This document shows, piece after piece, positions 10,015-34,182 of a DNA stretch of 37,482 bases. Both the position numbers and the translations under genes were made by a program. Under the pieces are notes generated by a model. The model saw nothing but the letters and a program-made list of their open reading frames with translations, did not search any database and was not told the origin of the DNA. Each line of letters opens with the position of its first letter. Position 1 is the stretch's first letter. Source of the DNA: a virus; the IMG/VR virus record IMGVR_UViG_3300006929_000042, positions 1 to 37,482 of that record; one strand, given 5' to 3'.

Positions 10015-10827
10015 ATGGCTACATCATCTCAAATAAAATCAGCAATAAGAAGTAGGGGAACAGCTCAAAGAGAAATAACTCAACAACTTGCTGGTGTTTC
10101 TGAGCAATTATTAAAAGCAGAAGAATCTGCAAGACTTAATGAATTTAAAGCTAAAGAAGAAGGAAGAGGATTCGATACTGCATTTAAAGGGTTTGAAACT
10201 ATATCTATATTAAGTGAAGATTTAAAACAAAAAAAACAAATTGAAAAAGATATAGAAACATTTAAAACTTCTTTAGGTGAAGATGTAAGCGAATTTAGAA
10301 TTGATAAATCAGATATTTCTTTAATGGATGTATTTAAACAAAAAAATACTTTAACTGAATTTTTATCTCAAGAAGATAAATACTTTTTAGGTAATAAAGA
10401 ATTAGGAAGTAAATATGACGTAGCTGCTAAAGGACAACAAATAGAATCTTTATCTTTAGTTAAAAATTTATTAGAATCTACAGATTCTCCTTTATTAAAA
10501 AGTTCTGAAATTAATTTAGAAACTCCTAAATCTCCTTCTATTAATAAAAAAGTTCCTATGTCAGAAAGAATATATAATGAAAAAGGTGGATTGGAATCTC
10601 CAAAAAAAGTTAAACCAAAATCAACAAAATCATTAACAAATGATATTTTTGAAAATATTGTTATTTCAGATAAAAAAGCTGATGAAATGGGTTTTAATAT
10701 ACCAGACATAACTGATGAAGATTCAAGTTTAATTTCATTTTTAGGAGACCCAGATCTTTCTATTGAAGATTTTAAAAAATTTGCTGATTTAGGTTTTCCA
10801 TTATCGTATTACGGACAAGCGGAGTAA
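10015..10827 (+). CDS. Helical virion-type protein, 270 aa
   Basis: Not recognised. The first ~100 residues are Gln/Glu/Lys-rich helix (AQREITQQLAGVSEQLLKAEESARL), the C-terminal half is Ser/Lys-rich and probably disordered with an acidic end. It is the first gene of the block 10015-23774, whose members are helical, lack signal peptides and grow in size; such blocks encode internal virion or ejection proteins in podoviruses. Role inferred from position and composition only. Confidence 0.55.
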   Translation: MATSSQIKSAIRSRGTAQREITQQLAGVSEQLLKAEESARLNEFKAKEEGRGFDTAFKGFETISILSEDLKQKKQIEKDIETFKTSLGEDVSEFRIDKSDISLMDVFKQKNTLTEFLSQEDKYFLGNKELGSKYDVAAKGQQIESLSLVKNLLESTDSPLLKSSEINLETPKSPSINKKVPMSERIYNEKGGLESPKKVKPKSTKSLTNDIFENIVISDKKADEMGFNIPDITDEDSSLISFLGDPDLSIEDFKKFADLGFPLSYYGQAE

Positions 10828-10830
10828 TTT

Positions 10831-11328
10831 ATGTATGTAGAAGCAGCAATGGCAGCTTTAAGTGTTGCACAAGATATAGGAAACACTAATAGAGTTAGAA
10901 GAGAAGGTAGAAGGCAAAGTGCATTTCTTAGCGATGCTTTAAAAGATTTAGGATTAGCTGAAAAATCATTACAAGAATCATTAGGTGGTAGTTTAGCTTT
11001 ATCTACATTAGAATCGCAAAGAGCATTAAAATCTGTATCTGATTCTGGTCAAAAAACAATACAACAAATTGGGAAAAGACAAGACCAAATTAATCAAGCA
11101 ACTGGATTTGCTAATGTTGGAATGGATGATGATATGATAAAAGATGTAAGAAAACAATTTCAAACAAAGAGAGAAGATGTAGATATTGCACTTACTAAAA
11201 GTTTAAGTGATGTATTATCTCAATTTGAACAACAAAAGTTTGAAATGAAATCTCAACGTCAACAATTAGAAATGCAGAAAAGAATGGCAAACGAACAAGC
11301 TAACACTAAATATTTTGGAATACTTTAA
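10831..11328 (+). CDS. Probable internal virion/ejection protein, 165 aa
   Basis: GGAG (10822-10825) precedes ATG 10831. Short hydrophobic/Ala-rich N-terminus (MYVEAAMAALSVAQDIG), then almost continuous Gln/Lys/Glu-rich helix. Size and make-up resemble small ejection proteins of podoviruses such as T7 gp14-type proteins (analogy, not demonstrated homology). Position just upstream of two helical genes and the giant virion gene supports it. Confidence 0.6.
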   Translation: MYVEAAMAALSVAQDIGNTNRVRREGRRQSAFLSDALKDLGLAEKSLQESLGGSLALSTLESQRALKSVSDSGQKTIQQIGKRQDQINQATGFANVGMDDDMIKDVRKQFQTKREDVDIALTKSLSDVLSQFEQQKFEMKSQRQQLEMQKRMANEQANTKYFGIL

Positions 11329-11330
11329 TA

Positions 11331-12260
11331 ATGTCTAGGGCTTTAGATTCAATTAATAGTTTATTAAAATATAAACAATCAAGAGAACAACAAAAGATTG
11401 ATAGGTCTTTAGCTATGCTAGACTTAGGAACAAGATTAAGGCAACAAGAATTTAGCAGAGAAGAACAAATTCAAAGAATGGGAATTGCTCAAAGTCAAGA
11501 ACAAGATAGAATAGAAAGAGAAAGAGACGCTAACGAATTAAGAGATTTACAAAGAAATGAATTATATAGCCCAGAAGCAATTAAAAGAAGAGAACAAAAA
11601 CAAATTGCAGATTTAAAAATTAGTCAAGAACAATTAAATACTATAATAAATACAAAATCAGAACAAAATGTAGAAAAAGTTTTTTCATCTATTAGTCGAA
11701 TAGAAGACGAACAAGATTTAAAATTTGTTTCTAGAATAAAAACAAATGAAATAATTCCTTCTCCTGTTTTTAATTATATAGAAAACTTTTGGGATGGAAG
11801 CGAAACAGACCTTAAAACAAAAATAAAAGAAATAGCAAAAAAATCAGATAAAGAAGATGAGGTAGATGATTTTTATGACAAAACAAATAGTCAAGCTATT
11901 GTAAATTCTTTAATACAAGCTCAGGTTAATTCATCTGCTACAGGTCGAGCAAATTATGATAATTTTTTAAATGTTTTTCAAGGATTAGATAAAAGTTACT
12001 TTGGTAATCAAATCCCTTTTATGGAATCTTTTCAAAATCCTATTAAAAAACATAATGAAAATAAAGCATTTTATTCAAATCAAGAAAATAGAATTGAAAT
12101 GTCAAATGCTATAAGAAAATCTACTAGAAATCAAATTGGAAAAGAATTTGATGAATTATTAAAAGATATATCAACAACTCAAAATATAGATTATGTACCT
12201 TACGATATAAAACAAATATTATTAGAAGAAGGTTTTTCTCCAGAAGATTTAGGATTATAA
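11331..12260 (+). CDS. Probable internal virion protein with long coiled coil, 309 aa
   Basis: Residues about 1-125 are a continuous Arg/Glu/Gln-rich coiled coil (SREQQKIDRSLAMLDLG, QSQEQDRIERERDANEL); the rest is mixed helical. No membrane segment, no enzyme motif. It lies between the 165-residue protein and the giant gene with gaps of only a few bases, so it is probably co-packaged with them. Confidence 0.55.
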   Translation: MSRALDSINSLLKYKQSREQQKIDRSLAMLDLGTRLRQQEFSREEQIQRMGIAQSQEQDRIERERDANELRDLQRNELYSPEAIKRREQKQIADLKISQEQLNTIINTKSEQNVEKVFSSISRIEDEQDLKFVSRIKTNEIIPSPVFNYIENFWDGSETDLKTKIKEIAKKSDKEDEVDDFYDKTNSQAIVNSLIQAQVNSSATGRANYDNFLNVFQGLDKSYFGNQIPFMESFQNPIKKHNENKAFYSNQENRIEMSNAIRKSTRNQIGKEFDELLKDISTTQNIDYVPYDIKQILLEEGFSPEDLGL

Positions 12261-12264
12261 TAAT

Positions 12265-15200
12265 ATGCCAATGTCAAAAGCAGCTTTAGAAAGAGCTAGA
12301 CAATTAATAAAAGAACGAAATGCAAATCAATTAGACCCAATTCAATCTTTAAATGTTTATGGAATATCTGAAAAAGAAAAAGAAAAAGAATTAACGGCTA
12401 GAGAAAGATTTGAACAACAAAGAGAAGAAGAAAGAAAAACAATAACAAATTTTCAATCTAATTTTTCTGAACCTAAAAATATACCATCTGAACAAAATTT
12501 AGGAATACTTAAAAACGTAGGTGAATCTTTATATAAAGGCGCCGCTGCTGGTACATATGAATTTGCAGAATCATTTACTTTTGGAGTTCCCGGTTTAATA
12601 GAAGCTGGTATAAAAGATGTTGGTATTCAAAAAACAATTAGGGATTATCAAGAAGAAGATTTATTTGCTAAAGTATTAGGTGGAGTTGGAACTGGTGTTG
12701 GCTATTTAGTTGGAGCTCCAGTTAAATTAACTTCAAAAATTTTAGGAAAAGGAGCATCTGTATTAGCTTCTAATTTACTTGGTAAGCAAACAACTAGGTC
12801 AGCAGTTAGTGCAATAACAAAATCAGCTGATAAAGCATCTAAACTTTCAAAAAGCGTTAAAAAAGAACTTAGTGATGAAGTAAGTAAAGTAGTTACAAAA
12901 ACTGCTTCTTCGGTAGGTATAAAAACTTCTACAGCTAGTAATACATTTGCTCAATCATTTGCAAAAAATATAAATACAAGAATACAATCGTTATTAAAGT
13001 CTGGTCAAATAAATTCTGCTCAAGCAAAAGCAATGAGAGAAATGGCTACTGTAGTAGGAAGTAAGGGTGTTCCTGTTAATACATTGCAAACTATAGCAAA
13101 AGCAAAATATGGACAAGGTTATGCTGGGAGATTTATGAGTGAGTTTCTTGAAGATGCTTTTGTATTTTCATTTGCAGATGGATTAATGAGTGTTAGTAGG
13201 CAAGGACAACAAGTATTAAGAGGAGAATCAGATAGTATAAAAACTGGATTTAATCCATTTGACGAAAGTTTTTTAGAAGTAGGTAGCGTTGCTAGAGAAA
13301 TGGTATTTGGATTTGCCGCTGGTACAGCTGTAAATGCTACAGCAGCTTTTTTTCAACCATTAAATAAATTTATGAAATCTAAAGTTGATTTTTTTCAAGG
13401 AGTGAGAGGTCTTTTAGGTAAAAATGATTACAAGGGTAAAGATTTAAAGTATTTAACTAAACAATTAATTCATTATGGAGAACAAAATAGATATAACAAT
13501 TTTTCTACAAAAATGATATTTACAAAAAATGGAATAAAAGATAATGTAGATTTATATAAATTTGCTAAAGCAAATGATAAATTATCTGAAACTAGATTAA
13601 AAGATTTACTTAGACAGGAACTTGGAGATGATGCAGAAAAAGAAGCAATAAAATGGTTAATGTCTACAAGAAAAAAATATGCTAAAGAAATAATAAAAGA
13701 ATCAACTAAAGAAGGGTTTCAAAATTATAGAATTTTATTTCCTAGAATGATGGCTACTGGAGCAGCTATGTCAGGAACTCAAATGCTTCAGACTTATATA
13801 GATGAAGATACATTAAATTTAAATGCTACTGATTATATAGCAAGTTTTATTATTGGTGGTTTTACAATGAGAAGGGGAAATTTTGGTAGAATAGATATTG
13901 ATACTAAAATAAATAAATTAAGACATGGATTAGAAGGTTTAGGAATTAAGTCTGAAAATACATTTTATTCGTCTACTCTGTCTGGAGGAAATGAAAGATT
14001 TGGAGTTGGTTTATTAAGAGATAACGAAGAATTAACAAGTTATTTAAAAGAAGAAGGCATTGTAAGCGATGAAGACGAAACTATAACAAATTATGAATTT
14101 AAAAATGATGAAAAATCATTTTATAATTTTGACACAGCAGAACCTACGGACCCCTACGCAAATAGAATGAATGTTTTATCTGGATTAATGGAAGCTGATT
14201 ATGAATATTCTAGAACATTAGACCAGATTACAGATAAACAAGCTTCTAAAATTATGAATCTTTTAGAAAAACAAGGTTTTAAAACTGTCGAAGATTTTAA
14301 TTCAGTATTAGAAGACCGAGTTGATGAAGCAACTCAAGGAATGGAAGAGTCTTTATCGGGGGTATTAAAAAATATTAACAGAGCTAATCATGAAGATATT
14401 GTTATAAAAGAAAATAAAAAAGGAATTACAATTCCAGCTAATGTTAAAATTAGTAATGAACTTTTTAAAAAAGCATCTGATGGCGAATTTAAAGAATGGT
14501 TATCTGGAAAAGAAGGTAATGAAGCGGAAGAAGAATTGTCTGATGCTATAAGGAGTTTGGAAACTGTAATAGCCGTAACTGAAGGATTAGGAGCCTCTTC
14601 ATTTGACCAATCTCAAAGTGTTAATAAAATTGAAAGTGTTGAAACTTTAAAATCTATATATGATATTGTAAGAAAATCTGAATCAGATATTAATCAATCT
14701 GTTTCAAATAAAGATGGAAGACTTAATTTTAAATTTACAGAATTAGAATCTTATATTGTTCCTATGATGAGGAATATAGGTAATAATAATACTAAAAAAA
14801 TAATGAGTGTATTATCTGAAAAAAATATGGATTCAAAATTAATGTCTCTTTTTCTAGATTCTGGTATGTTAATTAAAGAAGGTGACGATATAAAATTAAT
14901 TAACGATTACAAAGATATAAATACATCTGAAGATGCTAGTAAAATTGATTTAGGCAAAATACATGGCATATTAAAAGCTCTTGGTGAATTTAAAATAACA
15001 GAAACTCCCAATCCTAATGTTATAGAAAAAACTCAAATTGCTAGTTTACAAAATCAATTAAATAGTTTAGGTGTTAAAGTTGATTTATTAAATAGAAAAA
15101 ATATGGAATTTATGTATCAATTAGTTTTAAATGATATAAATAAACTTAGATTAAAAAATTCTGTAGTTGACCCAGCTGATATAGATTTTATTATTCAACA

Positions 15201-18200
15201 ATCTGGTAATCCAAATTTTAGCATACCCGGTGTATTAGATGACAAAGGAATTAGAAATTTTATTTTAAGAACTGTGTCTATTCCTAGTGATTTAAATTTA
15301 CAAAATAAATATAATAAAATATTAAATAGATTAAAAAAAGACAGTAAAGTCGTTAATATTTTAACTGAATCAATACAGTTAACTCCTGAAGATGCTTTCG
15401 TATTAAAAAATAAATTAGACAATATATATGCAAAAGATAGAAGTTCAGATAATACTAAAATAGAAGATTTGTTTAGCATTATGACTAATACAAAATTAAA
15501 TAGTGTTAAAAATCAAATGCAAGAACACATTTTAAATTTTGGAGATAATGCTAGAATAGATATTTTAAATATGTTAAATCAACAAAATATTATAAAAAGA
15601 AATGTAGATGGAAATCTAGACATTATAGAAGAAAATTTAACTATAGAAAAATTTGAATTAATAAAAGAAAATATAACTAGAGCTGGTTTACCTTCTGAAA
15701 TAGTCCAAAAAAATATAGACGAAAGAAGAGAAATAAGAAGAAAATATATTAAAGATTCTTCAGATGTTTTAAATGAAAAAAATGCATCATTAAGTATTGA
15801 CCAATTTTTCTCAAAATATAAATTTAAAGTTACATTGGATAATGGAACTATATCATATGAAAGTCATGCTAATAAAGACAACATTTCAAAAAGAAACTTT
15901 TTTAATGATTTAATATTTGAAGACAATGAAAAAGCAATTAATGGTGAGAAAGTAGATGAAGTTAAAATCATTAACGAAGAATCTATAAAAAGAATTAGTG
16001 AACAATTAGTTACAAATAAAAATGAAGAGTTTAAAGATTTATCAACAGAGAAAAAAGATAACATTATTCAAGATATTAATCAGATAGCATTTGGAACTAA
16101 AGATAGAGTTGAAATTAGAAAAATAAGTATTAGAAATAATGAATTGTCAATTGACGAAAATAAAGAATTAATGCAAAATAATCCCGTTCATCAATATTTT
16201 AATTCATTAGGGTTAGATTACGGAATATTTGATAATAGTGTAGTTTATACAGAATTTAATAGGTCTGGAAATTTAATAGAAAAAACATACAATATTCTTC
16301 AAACTGAAAATATACCAAAATTACTTAGGTCAAGAATAAAAGAAACAAGAGATAGGGTACAAAAAACTTTAGCAAATAAAAATCTTAATCCTAATGATGT
16401 ATTTTCTTCTGACCCAAATGATATAGGAATAAAAAAATTAGATGTTTATGATGGAATGGATAGTATTTTAATAAATACAATTGACCAACAAAAAATAGTT
16501 GATGATTTTTACAGATTTCATAAAGAACATATAAACAAAGTAGATACAAAAACAAAAAGAGTTTTAGATAATATTAAAAAATCATTTGACGATACTGAAA
16601 GTATTTATAAATATAAAGATGAAAAAATAGAACACGCTACTAGATTTTTAATTTTTGAAGTTGGATTTAAAAGCAAAGATAATGATTTACTTTATAGCAT
16701 ATTAAATGAAACAGACCCAACTAGAGTAGACAAATACATAAAAAGATTAAAATTAATTACTACAAAGAATTTTGTTAGACCTACAGTTGAATATTTAAAA
16801 TCTGTACAAAAAGCAAGAGAAACTCTATTGGGTAAAGAAGACAATGTTGTAAAATTAATTAATAATAGATTGGCAAAAGAAGGTCACAATGTTGTTGTGT
16901 GGGATGATGAGGGGACTGAGTCTATGTCTCAAATTATACAAGATTTAAAAAACGAATATCCCGAATATGAAAACATTGATTTAGAAAATACAATAGGAAA
17001 TGCTCATGGCCAAGTTTCTGGATTTGACAGTATAAGTTTTATTTCTAAAAATGCTATGTCAGAATACCATGCATACATGGGGCATGACCCTAACTCTACA
17101 AACCCTATAAAGCCTGTTATATCGTCTCAGGGAGAAGGAAAAACTCTTTTGTATGGTAAGACCTTATTTGTTTATTCCCCTGCTTTAAATGGGTTTTTTG
17201 ATAATAATCCAACAGTTGATATTTTACTTACAAAATCTGGAGCTAAGGCGTATGATGGAATAGATGATGGAAATAAAGATGATATTAATTTTATAAAAGG
17301 AAAAAGATATACTGATTTAAATACTGGTTCTTATTCTAATTTAATAAAAACAATTGATATTAACGCTTTAGGATTAAGACCAGAGAAAGATGCTAATTTA
17401 TTATCCGCTAGTGTATCTGATGCTGATTATAATTACATGAATACAAAAGAACATGGAGATGCTTTTGCAGAAATATCTGAAGAGTTAGATTTAAATTTAG
17501 ATGCCATGAAGGAAATAATGAGAGACCCTTATAAAATGAATGCTTTTATGAGGACTAAAATGGAAGAGGGAAAAATACCACAAGATTCACAAGAAGGTTC
17601 ATTGCAAAATTTAAGTAATTTAATGTATTATTTAAAATTAAGTGAAAATGATTCTAACATATCAGCAGACCCTACAGATTATAGTGTAAATCAAGTACAA
17701 AAATATTTAGCTAAAGAATATATAGATAATATTTTTTCAGATAGAAGAGCAATAGTAAATAGAATTTACAATGATATAGAAACTGAATCTTATAGATATG
17801 GAGGACAAGCTCCATTAATTGTTTCTGGTAAAAGCCATTTAGGCAAAGATAAAAAAACAAGATTATTACCTACTTTATTTAACAAATTAAATAATATGGT
17901 AGTAAGAGGTCAGATAATGTTACCATTTAAAGAAAAAGAAACTAAATTATCTGAACTTGGTAGTAAAAAAATAAGAATAGTTCAAAATGATAGAATATTA
18001 ACTGTGAAAGAATTTGTTGAAGAAATTACTCCGTTTATTTCAGAAGAGGATTTAAGTATAATTGGAAACATTGAAGATATGCTCTCTGTTGATGCTACTT
18101 TAGAAACTGCTCATGATTTAATAGAATCTATTCAAGAACTTACTGAAACAAGATATGAAATGGGTATTATCTCTAGACGTAATCCAAGAACAAGACCTAA

Positions 18201-20943
18201 TGATATAACATTATTAGGATTAAAAGGTTTTTTAGATGAAAGTCAAGGATTGGGAGTAGAGATTAATAGTTTTGATGTTGCTAATGTATACGAAGGTGAC
18301 TATGATGCAGATAAAGTAGATTATTTTTTCGCACACGATGATTATATGTTTGATTATATTAAAAGAAATCAATCTTATTTTGTTCAAGGTATTGACCCTT
18401 CTGATTTACAAGGTAGTCCAACATTTACATTTCAAATGGAATCAAGTTCTTCAAGAGATGCAATTCTTTCTAAAATAGGTAGTTCAATATCTTTTAAACA
18501 AGGAATAGGGATTGTACAAAAAACACCTAGAAAAATTAATTATTTACAAAATTTAGGAAGTAATGAATATTTATTTGACGAAGACCAAAGAGAGCCTTGG
18601 GATGAACATACTAGAGTTAATCCATTTACTAATGAATTAATTGGGCCGTCTTTATTATATAAAAGTGGTGAAAATGAATATGTAACTGTTGACACAGAAA
18701 CATTAGCATATTTTCAAAGAGCTGCTTTAGAAGTTCAGTATATTGTAGATGGTTCTAATAAATTGAATCCAAATATAGCAGGAGATATATATGATTGGAC
18801 AGATGGATTTTTGTTTCCTGAAAATTCAAAATCAATGTCTCCAAAACAAGCAAATGCTAAAGATTTAAAACAAATAATAGAGAATGGCCAAACTGCTAAT
18901 GGATTAAGAGTAAGAATATTTCAAAAATTTACATTAGATGAAAGTTCTAAGAAATATAAAACAACTAATAATTTAAATGATGCTGATAAGTTAATTATAA
19001 AAGAATTTTTAAATCAACAAAACAAATTATTAAATGCTTTTGGTGATAAAACTTATACTGAAGGTTCTCCTAGAAAATCTACATTTTATGATTTATATAA
19101 TGGCAGTAGAATATTTAGAGATTTTCATAGAAATGTTTATCAAGGATTAAATAAAGCGTTATTTTATAAACAAAAATTTCTTAGTTCTGGTGATAAAAAT
19201 TATTTAACAAATATATTAGATTCTGATAACAAAGCATTTGAATCTATACAATCCAATGTTCAAGATATATACGATGGAAATGGAGGTAGTTATTTAGATA
19301 GAATGGCTGTTACAATTGCTAAAAGTGAATTTATGGAAGATAAAAAGCAATACAATTTAGATATAGAAACATATACTCAAGTTGACAATTGGTTTAATTC
19401 ATTTTTAGGTGATGTTGCTGATGGTGACGGTGATTACAAAGACGTTACAAAAACAAATTTAAATAATTTCATGACTAGTATTGATGGTCAAATTGAACAA
19501 GCTGTTGATAAAAAAGCAAAAAAAGTAGTTCAAGATACAAAAAAATTCAATTCATATATATCTACTATTAAAAGACTATCTAAGAAAAAAGATTTTATTA
19601 AAAAAAGTTCTTATGGATGGAGATGGAAAAATCATAAAATAAAAGCATTAGATTATGTTATAAATAAATTTCAACAAAAAGTTAAAGATGAATATGGAAA
19701 AAATATTCAAAAAATTGACCCAAGAAAATTAGAATATAAAAAATATGTATCTATTGAAGATAGTGGAATTGTAAAATCTGTAATTCACAAACATGCTTTA
19801 GATTCTTTTTTAAAAAAACTAAGCCCTCAATACGACAATTGGACTGAAACATTGGGAGACAAAGATAGCGATGCAAGAAAAGATTTGCAATCTGTAAAAG
19901 ATTTTAACGCTAAAGTTCTTGGAGGTAATACATTATTAGATGAAATACTTCCAAATAATAAAAATACTATTCTACAAGATAAAAGAATGTTTGATTTTAT
20001 TCAACAACATAAAATTGGAATTAGTAATGTTTGGGAATTAAGACAAAAATATTTAATTAATAAAATAAATAAACATGGGATTAATTTTCTTTATGCATAT
20101 ATGGAACCAATAAGAGACAGAGATTCTATAGGTATTTTTAATAATAGACCTGTTGCTATTCCATATAAAGAATCAAAGAGGTATTCGCATGGAATACAAT
20201 TATTAACAGCAATGGCTAAGGGTGATAAAAATTTATATGCAATGTTGAAACAAGACGAATTATTTGACACTAGTTATTCTTTGCAAGCAGAATCAAATAT
20301 TCATTTAAGAGAGTTATTGCAAGCCAATGAACATTATAGAAGATTTTTTGAAAAAGATACAGAATTAATGGATTTAACTAATCCTTTAGTAGATAGATAT
20401 AAATTAATGGGTTTTGATAAGGGAATGGAAAAAAGATTAAATACAAATAATGATTTTAGTTGGTCTGCTCAATTATTAGCATCTGACCCATTATCAACTA
20501 TTAATAAATCTACAATAGAAATTTATAGAGATTTTGTTGAAAGTTATACCGATAAAACAAATGAAGATTTTATTAAATTTGTTCAAGAATTAAATGACTT
20601 AGATGAATTTTCAGCGAGAAATGATTATATTAATCCAATAAGATATATGAAAAAAAGATTAGACTTAGATGAAGGATTTAGAAAATTAAGTAAAAATAAT
20701 ATATATAATGTTGTAGGAGTTGATGGAAAACCTAGCAATCTTTTAGACAATGAAAGATACTTAGGAAATAAATTTTTTAAATTTAAACCTAAACTTGTTA
20801 AAACAAATGAAAAATTAATATCTATGTTGAAAAACATGAGAGAAATGAAAGATGAATTAAATAGAACCGTTAGAGAAAATCCTGTTAGAGATTCTGGATT
20901 TGAAACAATTAGAACATTAAAGGAGATGAGAGATTGCCTGTAA
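12265..20943 (+). CDS. Giant virion protein, candidate ejected double-psi-barrel RNA polymerase, 2892 aa
   Basis: Seen: residues 1-530 include Gly/Ala-rich hydrophobic stretches (GAAAGTYEFAESFTFG, VLGGVGTGVGYLVGAPV, VFGFAAGTAVNATAAFF) like those of phage ejection proteins. The rest is helical, Lys/Asn/Asp-rich. Residues 1971-2016 contain Arg-Arg-Asn-Pro, then Asp-Ile, Gly-x-x-Ile-Asn and Asn-x-x-x-Gly-Asp-Tyr-Asp-Ala-Asp. Known: in beta-prime subunits, eukaryotic RNA-silencing polymerases and the crAss-like phage polymerase, an Arg-x-Pro segment lies about 40 residues before the metal-binding Asp-x-Asp-Gly-Asp. Here Gly is Ala, but all three Asp (2012, 2014, 2016) are kept. Inferred: a virion-packaged RNA polymerase that enters the cell with the DNA. 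This fits the ejection cassette and the absence of any other phage polymerase gene here. Alternative: a large structural cargo protein with a chance motif. ORF certain; enzyme role probable, not proven. Confidence 0.9.
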   Translation: MPMSKAALERARQLIKERNANQLDPIQSLNVYGISEKEKEKELTARERFEQQREEERKTITNFQSNFSEPKNIPSEQNLGILKNVGESLYKGAAAGTYEFAESFTFGVPGLIEAGIKDVGIQKTIRDYQEEDLFAKVLGGVGTGVGYLVGAPVKLTSKILGKGASVLASNLLGKQTTRSAVSAITKSADKASKLSKSVKKELSDEVSKVVTKTASSVGIKTSTASNTFAQSFAKNINTRIQSLLKSGQINSAQAKAMREMATVVGSKGVPVNTLQTIAKAKYGQGYAGRFMSEFLEDAFVFSFADGLMSVSRQGQQVLRGESDSIKTGFNPFDESFLEVGSVAREMVFGFAAGTAVNATAAFFQPLNKFMKSKVDFFQGVRGLLGKNDYKGKDLKYLTKQLIHYGEQNRYNNFSTKMIFTKNGIKDNVDLYKFAKANDKLSETRLKDLLRQELGDDAEKEAIKWLMSTRKKYAKEIIKESTKEGFQNYRILFPRMMATGAAMSGTQMLQTYIDEDTLNLNATDYIASFIIGGFTMRRGNFGRIDIDTKINKLRHGLEGLGIKSENTFYSSTLSGGNERFGVGLLRDNEELTSYLKEEGIVSDEDETITNYEFKNDEKSFYNFDTAEPTDPYANRMNVLSGLMEADYEYSRTLDQITDKQASKIMNLLEKQGFKTVEDFNSVLEDRVDEATQGMEESLSGVLKNINRANHEDIVIKENKKGITIPANVKISNELFKKASDGEFKEWLSGKEGNEAEEELSDAIRSLETVIAVTEGLGASSFDQSQSVNKIESVETLKSIYDIVRKSESDINQSVSNKDGRLNFKFTELESYIVPMMRNIGNNNTKKIMSVLSEKNMDSKLMSLFLDSGMLIKEGDDIKLINDYKDINTSEDASKIDLGKIHGILKALGEFKITETPNPNVIEKTQIASLQNQLNSLGVKVDLLNRKNMEFMYQLVLNDINKLRLKNSVVDPADIDFIIQQSGNPNFSIPGVLDDKGIRNFILRTVSIPSDLNLQNKYNKILNRLKKDSKVVNILTESIQLTPEDAFVLKNKLDNIYAKDRSSDNTKIEDLFSIMTNTKLNSVKNQMQEHILNFGDNARIDILNMLNQQNIIKRNVDGNLDIIEENLTIEKFELIKENITRAGLPSEIVQKNIDERREIRRKYIKDSSDVLNEKNASLSIDQFFSKYKFKVTLDNGTISYESHANKDNISKRNFFNDLIFEDNEKAINGEKVDEVKIINEESIKRISEQLVTNKNEEFKDLSTEKKDNIIQDINQIAFGTKDRVEIRKISIRNNELSIDENKELMQNNPVHQYFNSLGLDYGIFDNSVVYTEFNRSGNLIEKTYNILQTENIPKLLRSRIKETRDRVQKTLANKNLNPNDVFSSDPNDIGIKKLDVYDGMDSILINTIDQQKIVDDFYRFHKEHINKVDTKTKRVLDNIKKSFDDTESIYKYKDEKIEHATRFLIFEVGFKSKDNDLLYSILNETDPTRVDKYIKRLKLITTKNFVRPTVEYLKSVQKARETLLGKEDNVVKLINNRLAKEGHNVVVWDDEGTESMSQIIQDLKNEYPEYENIDLENTIGNAHGQVSGFDSISFISKNAMSEYHAYMGHDPNSTNPIKPVISSQGEGKTLLYGKTLFVYSPALNGFFDNNPTVDILLTKSGAKAYDGIDDGNKDDINFIKGKRYTDLNTGSYSNLIKTIDINALGLRPEKDANLLSASVSDADYNYMNTKEHGDAFAEISEELDLNLDAMKEIMRDPYKMNAFMRTKMEEGKIPQDSQEGSLQNLSNLMYYLKLSENDSNISADPTDYSVNQVQKYLAKEYIDNIFSDRRAIVNRIYNDIETESYRYGGQAPLIVSGKSHLGKDKKTRLLPTLFNKLNNMVVRGQIMLPFKEKETKLSELGSKKIRIVQNDRILTVKEFVEEITPFISEEDLSIIGNIEDMLSVDATLETAHDLIESIQELTETRYEMGIISRRNPRTRPNDITLLGLKGFLDESQGLGVEINSFDVANVYEGDYDADKVDYFFAHDDYMFDYIKRNQSYFVQGIDPSDLQGSPTFTFQMESSSSRDAILSKIGSSISFKQGIGIVQKTPRKINYLQNLGSNEYLFDEDQREPWDEHTRVNPFTNELIGPSLLYKSGENEYVTVDTETLAYFQRAALEVQYIVDGSNKLNPNIAGDIYDWTDGFLFPENSKSMSPKQANAKDLKQIIENGQTANGLRVRIFQKFTLDESSKKYKTTNNLNDADKLIIKEFLNQQNKLLNAFGDKTYTEGSPRKSTFYDLYNGSRIFRDFHRNVYQGLNKALFYKQKFLSSGDKNYLTNILDSDNKAFESIQSNVQDIYDGNGGSYLDRMAVTIAKSEFMEDKKQYNLDIETYTQVDNWFNSFLGDVADGDGDYKDVTKTNLNNFMTSIDGQIEQAVDKKAKKVVQDTKKFNSYISTIKRLSKKKDFIKKSSYGWRWKNHKIKALDYVINKFQQKVKDEYGKNIQKIDPRKLEYKKYVSIEDSGIVKSVIHKHALDSFLKKLSPQYDNWTETLGDKDSDARKDLQSVKDFNAKVLGGNTLLDEILPNNKNTILQDKRMFDFIQQHKIGISNVWELRQKYLINKINKHGINFLYAYMEPIRDRDSIGIFNNRPVAIPYKESKRYSHGIQLLTAMAKGDKNLYAMLKQDELFDTSYSLQAESNIHLRELLQANEHYRRFFEKDTELMDLTNPLVDRYKLMGFDKGMEKRLNTNNDFSWSAQLLASDPLSTINKSTIEIYRDFVESYTDKTNEDFIKFVQELNDLDEFSARNDYINPIRYMKKRLDLDEGFRKLSKNNIYNVVGVDGKPSNLLDNERYLGNKFFKFKPKLVKTNEKLISMLKNMREMKDELNRTVRENPVRDSGFETIRTLKEMRDCL
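18175..18312 (+). other. Candidate RNA polymerase active-site region (RRNP ... DYDAD) in the giant gene
   Basis: Codons 1971-1974 (18175-18186) read Arg-Arg-Asn-Pro and codons 2012-2016 (18298-18312) read Asp-Tyr-Asp-Ala-Asp, followed by Lys-Val-Asp-Tyr-Phe-Phe-Ala-His. The spacing (about 38 residues between Pro and the first Asp) and the intervening Gly-x-x-Ile-Asn match the layout of the catalytic barrel of beta-prime-type polymerases. The Ala in place of Gly is unusual. Confidence 0.55.
20919..20936 (+). promoter_or_regulatory. Ribosome site setting a TTG start inside the giant gene
   Basis: AAAGGAG at 20919-20925 lies 8 bases before TTG 20934, while the giant gene stops at 20943. This is the best ribosome site among the large late genes and explains a 10-base overlap and a TTG start for the 946-residue protein. 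Confidence 0.75.
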
Positions 20944-29559: not shown

Positions 29560-29584
29560 TGTCTCTCCTTATCATTTGAGGGTG

Positions 29585-29696
29585 ATGCCGAGAGAGAGAC
29601 GAGTATATATGGAGAGTATACGGGTTGGATACACACCACCCTCGTCTCAAAATTACTTAGAATAAGTTAGTTATTCCAAACAATATCTCTTGGCAT
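29585..29696. other. Element B: multibranched, GC-richer non-coding island
   Basis: Outer helix ATGCCGAGAGA (29585-29595) with TCTCTTGGCAT (29686-29696), one G-U pair. Inside it GAGACGAG (29596-29603) pairs perfectly with CTCGTCTC (29641-29648), and within that GTATA/TATAC and GGGTTGG/CCACCC hairpins; a further ACTTA/TAAGT hairpin follows. On the plus strand the outer helix is followed by seven T. Between the SSB-like gene and the next gene's ribosome site. No reading frame. Confidence 0.55.
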
Positions 29697-29707
29697 TTTT
29701 TTACTTG

Positions 29708-32259: not shown

Positions 32260-32283
32260 ATATCTCTCCTTATATGTATTCTA

Positions 32284-32312
32284 AATTTAATAATATCAAT
32301 ACTTATAGTCAA
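32284..32312 (-). promoter_or_regulatory. Candidate sigma-70-type promoter before exonuclease gene
   Basis: On the minus strand TTGACT (32312-32307), 17 bases, TAAATT (32289-32284). The start would fall near 32277, just before the ribosome site of the Cas4-like gene. It would allow the recombination block to be expressed separately from the genes ahead of element C. Confidence 0.4.
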
Positions 32313-32313
32313 C

Positions 32314-32543
32314 AGATAGACGGCTAAATCAGTCACTTCGTGAAGGCCTCGTACTAGATGAAGCGTTCATTAACCGTCATATCTATCCACATATCATTAC
32401 TTTTGAGTATAAGCTGACGTACGATGTGCGCACTTACGCCAGCCTATAGTCTCATGAACCTGTTAAGTTTTTGTTTAACACTTCAGACGAAGTCTTCATC
32501 GTGTTGCTCAGATACTACGAGTATCTTTTGTCGCTAAACTGAG
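32314..32543. other. Element C: long non-coding island full of hairpins
   Basis: Fills the 294-base gap between the winged-helix and exonuclease genes. AGATAGACGG (32314-32323) pairs with CCGTCATATCT (32374-32384, one bulge), enclosing TCAC-TTC-GTGA and ATGAA-GCG-TTCAT hairpins. Then GCTGACGT/ACGCCAGC, TGTTAA/TTAACA, ACTTC-AGAC-GAAGT and GATACT-ACG-AGTATC inside CTCAG/CTGAG. GGCCTC (32345-32350) could also pair with GAGGCC (32543-32548). No reading frame and no tRNA pattern. Confidence 0.5.
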
Positions 32544-32553
32544 AGGCCCAATT

Positions 32554-33893: not shown

Positions 33894-33926
33894 GATTAAA
33901 TCCTTTTGTATGTGTTAAAAAAGATA

Positions 33927-34059
33927 GGGCATTGCTATGAAGTAAGGACGATGCGGAGTCCACTTCTTACACTCTATTGTAGTTGTAGGTATAAGATAAC
34001 AATGCCCATAATTCTAGAGCCACATTTTGATTACAAGGTAGTGGCTTGCTACGATAGCA
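33927..34059. other. Element D1: non-coding structured island
   Basis: GGGCATTG (33927-33934) pairs perfectly with CAATGCCC (34000-34007). Inside, GAAGT-AA-GGAC (33939-33949) pairs with GTCC-ACTTC (33958-33966), with an alternative GTAAG/CTTAC pairing over the same bases. Then AGCCAC (34018-34023)/GTGGCT (34041-34046) and TGCTA-CGA-TAGCA (34047-34059). Read on the minus strand, the 8-bp helix is followed by TATCTTTTTT, like a terminator; read on the plus strand, the last hairpin is followed by CCTTTTT. Confidence 0.5.
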
Positions 34060-34072
34060 CCTTTTTAAAATC

Positions 34073-34182
34073 TTTGAGTGTCTTCGACCTTATCCCATCA
34101 TAAATTCGGTACATGACCCTGCGCAATGTGGGGAACCGTTTCTCGACAGTTGGTTACGCGCTACCACCAAAGTACACTCAAA
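34073..34182. other. Element D2: GC-rich non-coding structured island
   Basis: TTTGAGTGT (34073-34081) pairs perfectly with ACACTCAAA (34174-34182), enclosing 92 bases that are clearly richer in G and C than the rest. Inside: CGGTACAT (34107-34114) with ATGT (34126-34129) and ACCG (34135-34138), and TGGT (34151-34154) with ACCA (34163-34166). Directly follows the stop of the minus-strand gene at 34183. No frame, no tRNA features. Confidence 0.5.

Follow-up and report, generated by a model that had tools for sequence, protein, structure and literature searches.

A giant protein of an uncultured short-tailed phage with a probable two-barrel RNA polymerase core, nearest to the virion polymerases of crAss-like phages

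The reference virion RNA polymerase of crAss-like phages is gp66 of phi14:2 (PDB code 6vr4; AGO48955 in KC821624), the product of a giant late gene, which holds two double-psi barrels in one chain. In phi-crAss001, proteins associated with the RNA polymerase have been detected in virions as cargo (PMC10172136). A packaged polymerase is also known in the short-tailed phage N4 (Schitoviridae), where gp50 is a giant chain with N-terminal, polymerase and C-terminal regions (PMC12633501); the N4 enzyme, however, has the single-subunit (T7-like) fold. Phage P23-45 encodes two single-chain two-barrel polymerases, the vRNAP gp96, which lies within a giant virion protein, and the nvRNAP gp64 (PMC10770324). 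Two barrels in one chain are likewise found in QDE-1 and other eukaryotic RNA-silencing polymerases.

The window analysed here is a stretch of 37,482 nucleotides from an uncultured short-tailed phage, and it contains one intact giant open reading frame (Table 1). The core of its product is almost certainly a two-barrel RNA polymerase, for which catalytic activity is proposed from sequence and model. Because the middle third of the protein is predicted to fold like the crAss-like virion polymerase, the phage probably delivers a transcription enzyme of its own to the cell that it infects. The polymerase core is embedded between an N-terminal region of ~1540 residues and a C-terminal region of ~570 residues, and the barrel limits given in the table are our reading of the predicted secondary-structure string.

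Table 1. Features of the giant gene and its neighbours in the window
Feature	Coordinates	Strand	Description
Three upstream genes (270, 165 and 309 aa)	10015..12260	+	Order kept in close relatives
Giant gene	12265..20943	+	2892 aa: N-terminal region, predicted two-barrel RNA polymerase core, C-terminal region; full-length homologues exist
N-terminal region, residues 1-1544	12265..16896	+	Gly/Ala-rich stretches near 133-155 and 345-365
Predicted RNA polymerase core, residues 1545-2325	16897..19239	+	AlphaFold2 pLDDT 86.6, pTM 0.86; Foldseek 6vr4 E 1.7e-5
Barrel A, first half, ~residues 1612-1664	17098..17256	+	Invariant K1616, K1632, D1652, K1661
Barrel A, second half, ~residues 1846-1890 (GGQ...RGQIMLP)	17800..17934	+	Predicted structure
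Barrel B, ~residues 1963-2022	18151..18330	+	R1972-x-P1974 and DYDAD loop
DYDAD, residues 2012-2016	18298..18312	+	Three Asp invariant in 59/59 homologues; proposed Mg2+-binding triad
Predicted helix, 38 residues (2060-2097)	18442..18555	+	3' of barrel B, AlphaFold2 model; candidate bridge helix by position
C-terminal region, residues 2326-2892	19240..20940	+	Beyond the modelled core
Partner gene, up to 946 aa	20934..23774	+	Directly downstream in 39/39 relatives tested

An earlier note on this DNA had drawn attention to an RRNP sequence followed about 38 residues later by DYDADKVD, with Gly-x-x-Ile-Asn between them, and the translation bears out all of these positions: RRNP occupies residues 1971-1974, G1997-V-E-I-N2001 lies between, and DYDADKVD spans 2012-2019. 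Asp makes up 7.7% of the protein, and a DxDxD pattern, expected 1.3 times by chance, is present three times (at 2012, 2386 and 2532), so that the pattern by itself is weak evidence. Only the copy at 2012 is conserved.

Searching viral contigs with the entire protein returned 21 homologues, and profile scans gave 51, 72, 80 and 49 loci with heavy overlap, or ~95-100 contigs overall by our tally from the tables. As the motif was among the search words in several of the scans, conservation is fairly judged from the motif-independent scan, in which only the upstream barrel served as query. The full motif pattern was present in 69 of its 72 loci, and the motif in 70 of the 70 that reach it; in one locus (L124) the motif is kept with Lys in place of the first Arg, while the available sequence of two others (L079 and L116) stops short of the motif.

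Among 59 non-redundant homologues, with 24-82% identity to the window protein, D2012, Y2013, D2014, D2016 and P1974 are each present in all 59, as the earlier note had asked of the three Asp residues, and R1972 in 58, with a single Lys. The lysines of barrel A upstream of the motif (K1616, K1632 and K1661) are equally constant (59/59 each), and the presence of both these lysines and the R-x-P of barrel B is as expected of double-psi-barrel RNA polymerases. Invariance is found at 25 of 781 aligned positions, including K1616, P1617, K1632, T1633, D1652, K1661, P1974, D1980, G1995, D2004, E2010, G2011, D2012, Y2013, D2014 and D2016, and residues 2010-2021 form the best-conserved 12-residue window of the alignment.

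The residue preceding the last Asp of the motif, position 2015, varies freely (A in 37 homologues, V in 13, I in 6, Y in 2 and F in 1), so distant homologues carry DYDID or DYDVD, and the crAss-type enzymes have DFDID or DFDVD. The earlier note was therefore mistaken in supposing that crAss-like polymerases keep a Gly at this place, and its reading of the Ala as an altered metal motif does not hold, since the crAss-type enzymes have Ile or Val there. Loss of function through the Ala of DYDAD was also considered and, given this free variation, rejected.

Modelling of the core with 19 close relatives gave an AlphaFold2 prediction with pLDDT 53, which was discarded, and the model described here was obtained with 59 diverse relatives. 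By prediction it shows two double-psi barrels arranged as in RNA polymerases, with a helical insertion preceding the second half of barrel A. The only PDB structure matched by Foldseek with E ≤ 1e-3 was 6vr4, with a TM-score of 0.31 and 11% identity; the low TM-scores mean that the two share core topology and not a close superposition. After it came RNA polymerase I, the polymerases of jumbo phages AR9 and PhiKZ, QDE-1 (7y7p, E 4.2e-3), and bacterial beta' or eukaryotic largest-subunit (Rpb1) chains. This agrees with the resemblance to a catalytic double-psi barrel around residue 2012 that had been suggested from the letters. Among viral models the top matches were unnamed proteins (best E 5e-40, TM 0.77), with crAss-like phage proteins among those that came after.

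The relationship to the crAss-type polymerases is also detectable between profiles. An initial hhalign comparison with 42 homologues was suggestive only (P 0.01), and comparisons with single crAss sequences were mostly insignificant. A crAss-type profile was built from 13 core sequences, taken around DFDID/DFDVD in members of Crassvirales and in Flavobacterium phage Fpv1. Against this profile the raw alignment gave P 1.7e-4, and match columns gave P 1.9e-5 with a probability of 77.7% over 292 columns and a score of 58.2. The reversed profile scored 21.8, and the maximum of 120 match-column shuffles was 25.0; in an earlier control one of 60 whole-column shuffles had scored an aberrant 138, the cause of which is unexplained, and the control was repeated on match columns. 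In this collinear alignment DYDAD falls on DFDID and R-x-P on R-x-P; GQIMLP, from the second half of barrel A, is paired with the 'eiP' segment of the crAss enzymes, and K1661 with their VKVG. When the alignment is made global, the block at D1588-S1589, further upstream, pairs with the crAss DAQ block.

The Flavobacterium phage Fpv1 (L152, KU599877) encodes a structural protein of ~4400 residues with DYDIDK and a tblastn match to the phi14:2 polymerase (E 6e-22), and as Fpv1 is not classed in Crassvirales, polymerases of the crAss type already occur outside that order as annotated. Public records label several crassvirus polymerases (among L142-L153) as 'DNA helicase', 'exonuclease V', 'nuclear pore complex protein-like' or 'DUF1768 protein'.

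Direct searches gave no RNA polymerase match in Pfam or NCBIfam for the whole protein, in PHROGs for the protein and its core homologues, in the PDB by hmmsearch with three profiles, in INPHARED and PLSDB by tblastn, or among GTDB genome contigs. Neither the giant protein nor its N-terminal region matched any Pfam or NCBIfam family, tape-measure families included, and a scan with the first barrel of distant members yielded no additional branch. No published description of this polymerase family was found in a search that lay mostly within literature outside subscription. In our reading the homologues make up an undescribed family of probable virion RNA polymerases, with two barrels in a single chain, that apparently lies outside Crassvirales. 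Enzymes of this kind are already known; what looks new is the family itself and its apparent occurrence beyond that order.

In comparison with phi14:2 gp66, its best fold match, the protein has the same D-[FY]-D-x-D motif with a fourth residue other than Gly, and the same R-x-P ~40 residues upstream, but identity is only ~11-13%, the chain is longer (2892 versus 2180 residues) and has a longer N-terminal region, and the loop reads DYDAD instead of DFDID. It resembles N4 gp50 in the three-part layout of a giant chain in a short-tailed phage, but the single-subunit family of the N4 enzyme (PF00940) has no match here. Like gp96 and gp64 of P23-45, it is a single chain with two predicted barrels; the gp96 polymerase, however, stands at the N-terminus of a tail tape measure, whereas here the core spans residues 1545-2325 and a tape measure is not recognised, and the P23-45 enzymes are absent from the 50 best Foldseek matches of the core. 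The fold match to QDE-1 is weaker than that to phi14:2, and the Pfam family of eukaryotic RNA-silencing polymerases (RdRP) did not match the giant protein up to E 1.

The gene lies, as the earlier note described, in a cassette of virion-type genes; this cassette is on the plus strand, and the giant gene closes it, beside tail-type genes. The three genes upstream have no family match and are candidates for virion or ejection proteins, while the partner gene, also without a family match, is a candidate for a co-ejected protein. On the minus strand lie genes for DnaB, a D12 methyltransferase and a PDDEXK nuclease, together with a weak match of the Rad52 type. The T7-like polymerase family PF00940, which the earlier note had not seen in the window, is indeed missing from all 24 contigs searched (the window and 23 relatives), the T7 positive control giving E 1e-109. 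A near-complete relative (50,339 bases) encodes a terminase, a portal and a capsid protein, and again no PF00940 polymerase. Its terminase is related to that of N4, the best listed matches, at 23-25% identity, being to N4-like phages, cobavirus and further phages that are not crAss-like, and the phage is thus not obviously crAss-like, by this marker only; portal and capsid proteins of the relatives have few or no matches. The genome also differs in size from those of crAss phages (~50 kb versus ~100 kb).

In the early region, only words resembling ribosome-binding sites, and no shared promoter-like word, were found in the intergenic gaps. One non-coding gap between early genes (29560-29707, minus strand) folds better than shuffled sequences (z -3.1), is ~75-96% identical in relatives once copies of the same phage are excluded, and contains an invariant GAGGGTG / CACCCTC arm pair; it has no Rfam match and is a candidate phage RNA element. 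Two more non-coding gaps, 32260-32553 and 33894-34182 (minus strand), are likewise predicted to be strongly structured (z -4.1 and -2.8) and are barely conserved among the loci compared.

Given a polymerase, its packaging and ejection are very likely, as judged from the position of the gene, the partner gene, the absence of a T7-like polymerase and the analogy with the packaged enzymes. The best explanation as a whole, which we consider likely, is a DNA-dependent two-barrel RNA polymerase nearest to the crAss-like virion enzymes that is made late, packaged, ejected and transcribes the early genes. The main rival, a two-barrel polymerase made in the cell for middle or late transcription in the manner of P23-45 gp64, would fit the fold equally well, the fold evidence being silent on packaging, and non-virion two-barrel polymerases of phages are known (PMC10770324). 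It is nevertheless improbable, since the gene belongs to a late virion cassette beside tail-type genes and a conserved partner, the core shares its chain with ~2100 other residues, as the cores of packaged enzymes do, and the early genes are on the opposite strand.

Archaeal PolD uses the same double-psi barrels for DNA synthesis. A role of the fold in primer or DNA synthesis, or a catalytically dead, structural protein, would be compatible with the lack of a recognised DNA polymerase in the window and in the near-complete relative, and the computational tests applied are blind to chemistry. We regard this reading as very improbable, because the invariant triad and lysines argue against a dead enzyme, the nearest fold is an RNA polymerase and the late position of the gene is ill-suited to a replicase. 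A DnaB helicase and recombination-type genes are present in the window, although no DNA polymerase was recognised there or among the minority of replication-side reading frames scanned in the relatives. A last alternative is that the motif arose by chance in a large ejection protein of the ordinary sort, lacking a polymerase domain. The 1.3 DxDxD patterns expected by chance and the silence of the sequence libraries might suggest this, but it is hardly credible against the invariant set of catalytic-type residues, the fold match to 6vr4 and a profile score far above shuffles.

The favoured scheme of an ejected polymerase builds on what was computed, namely homology, invariant catalytic-type residues, predicted fold and gene order, from which we infer catalytic activity, packaging, ejection and the genes transcribed. 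The giant protein would be made late and packaged as a cargo protein of the head, to be ejected together with the DNA or ahead of it. The N-terminal region may help to form or bind a conduit through the envelope; the ejection-like, Gly/Ala-rich character ascribed to it by the earlier note is fair but weak, as Gly and Ala make up 23% of residues 101-200, but the hydrophobic stretches at ~133-155 and 345-365 are moderate, below typical membrane helices. In the cell, D2012, D2014 and D2016 would hold Mg2+, with the lysines of barrel A at the active site, and the ejected core would transcribe the early minus-strand genes.

It is also possible, and we suggest it tentatively, that in non-crAss podoviruses with N4-like terminases a two-barrel polymerase fills the slot that the T7-like enzyme has in the giant ejection protein of N4. 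If true, the ejected-polymerase strategy would have arisen two or more times, on different polymerase folds, or one polymerase module would have been exchanged for another within a common ejection scaffold. Single-chain two-barrel RNA polymerases connect the cellular multisubunit enzymes to the RNA-silencing polymerases and few families of them are known; the present one, which occurs in many uncultured phages, would give work on the origin of these enzymes a new and deep branch to draw on. From it follows the prediction that infection by these podoviruses begins without the host RNA polymerase.
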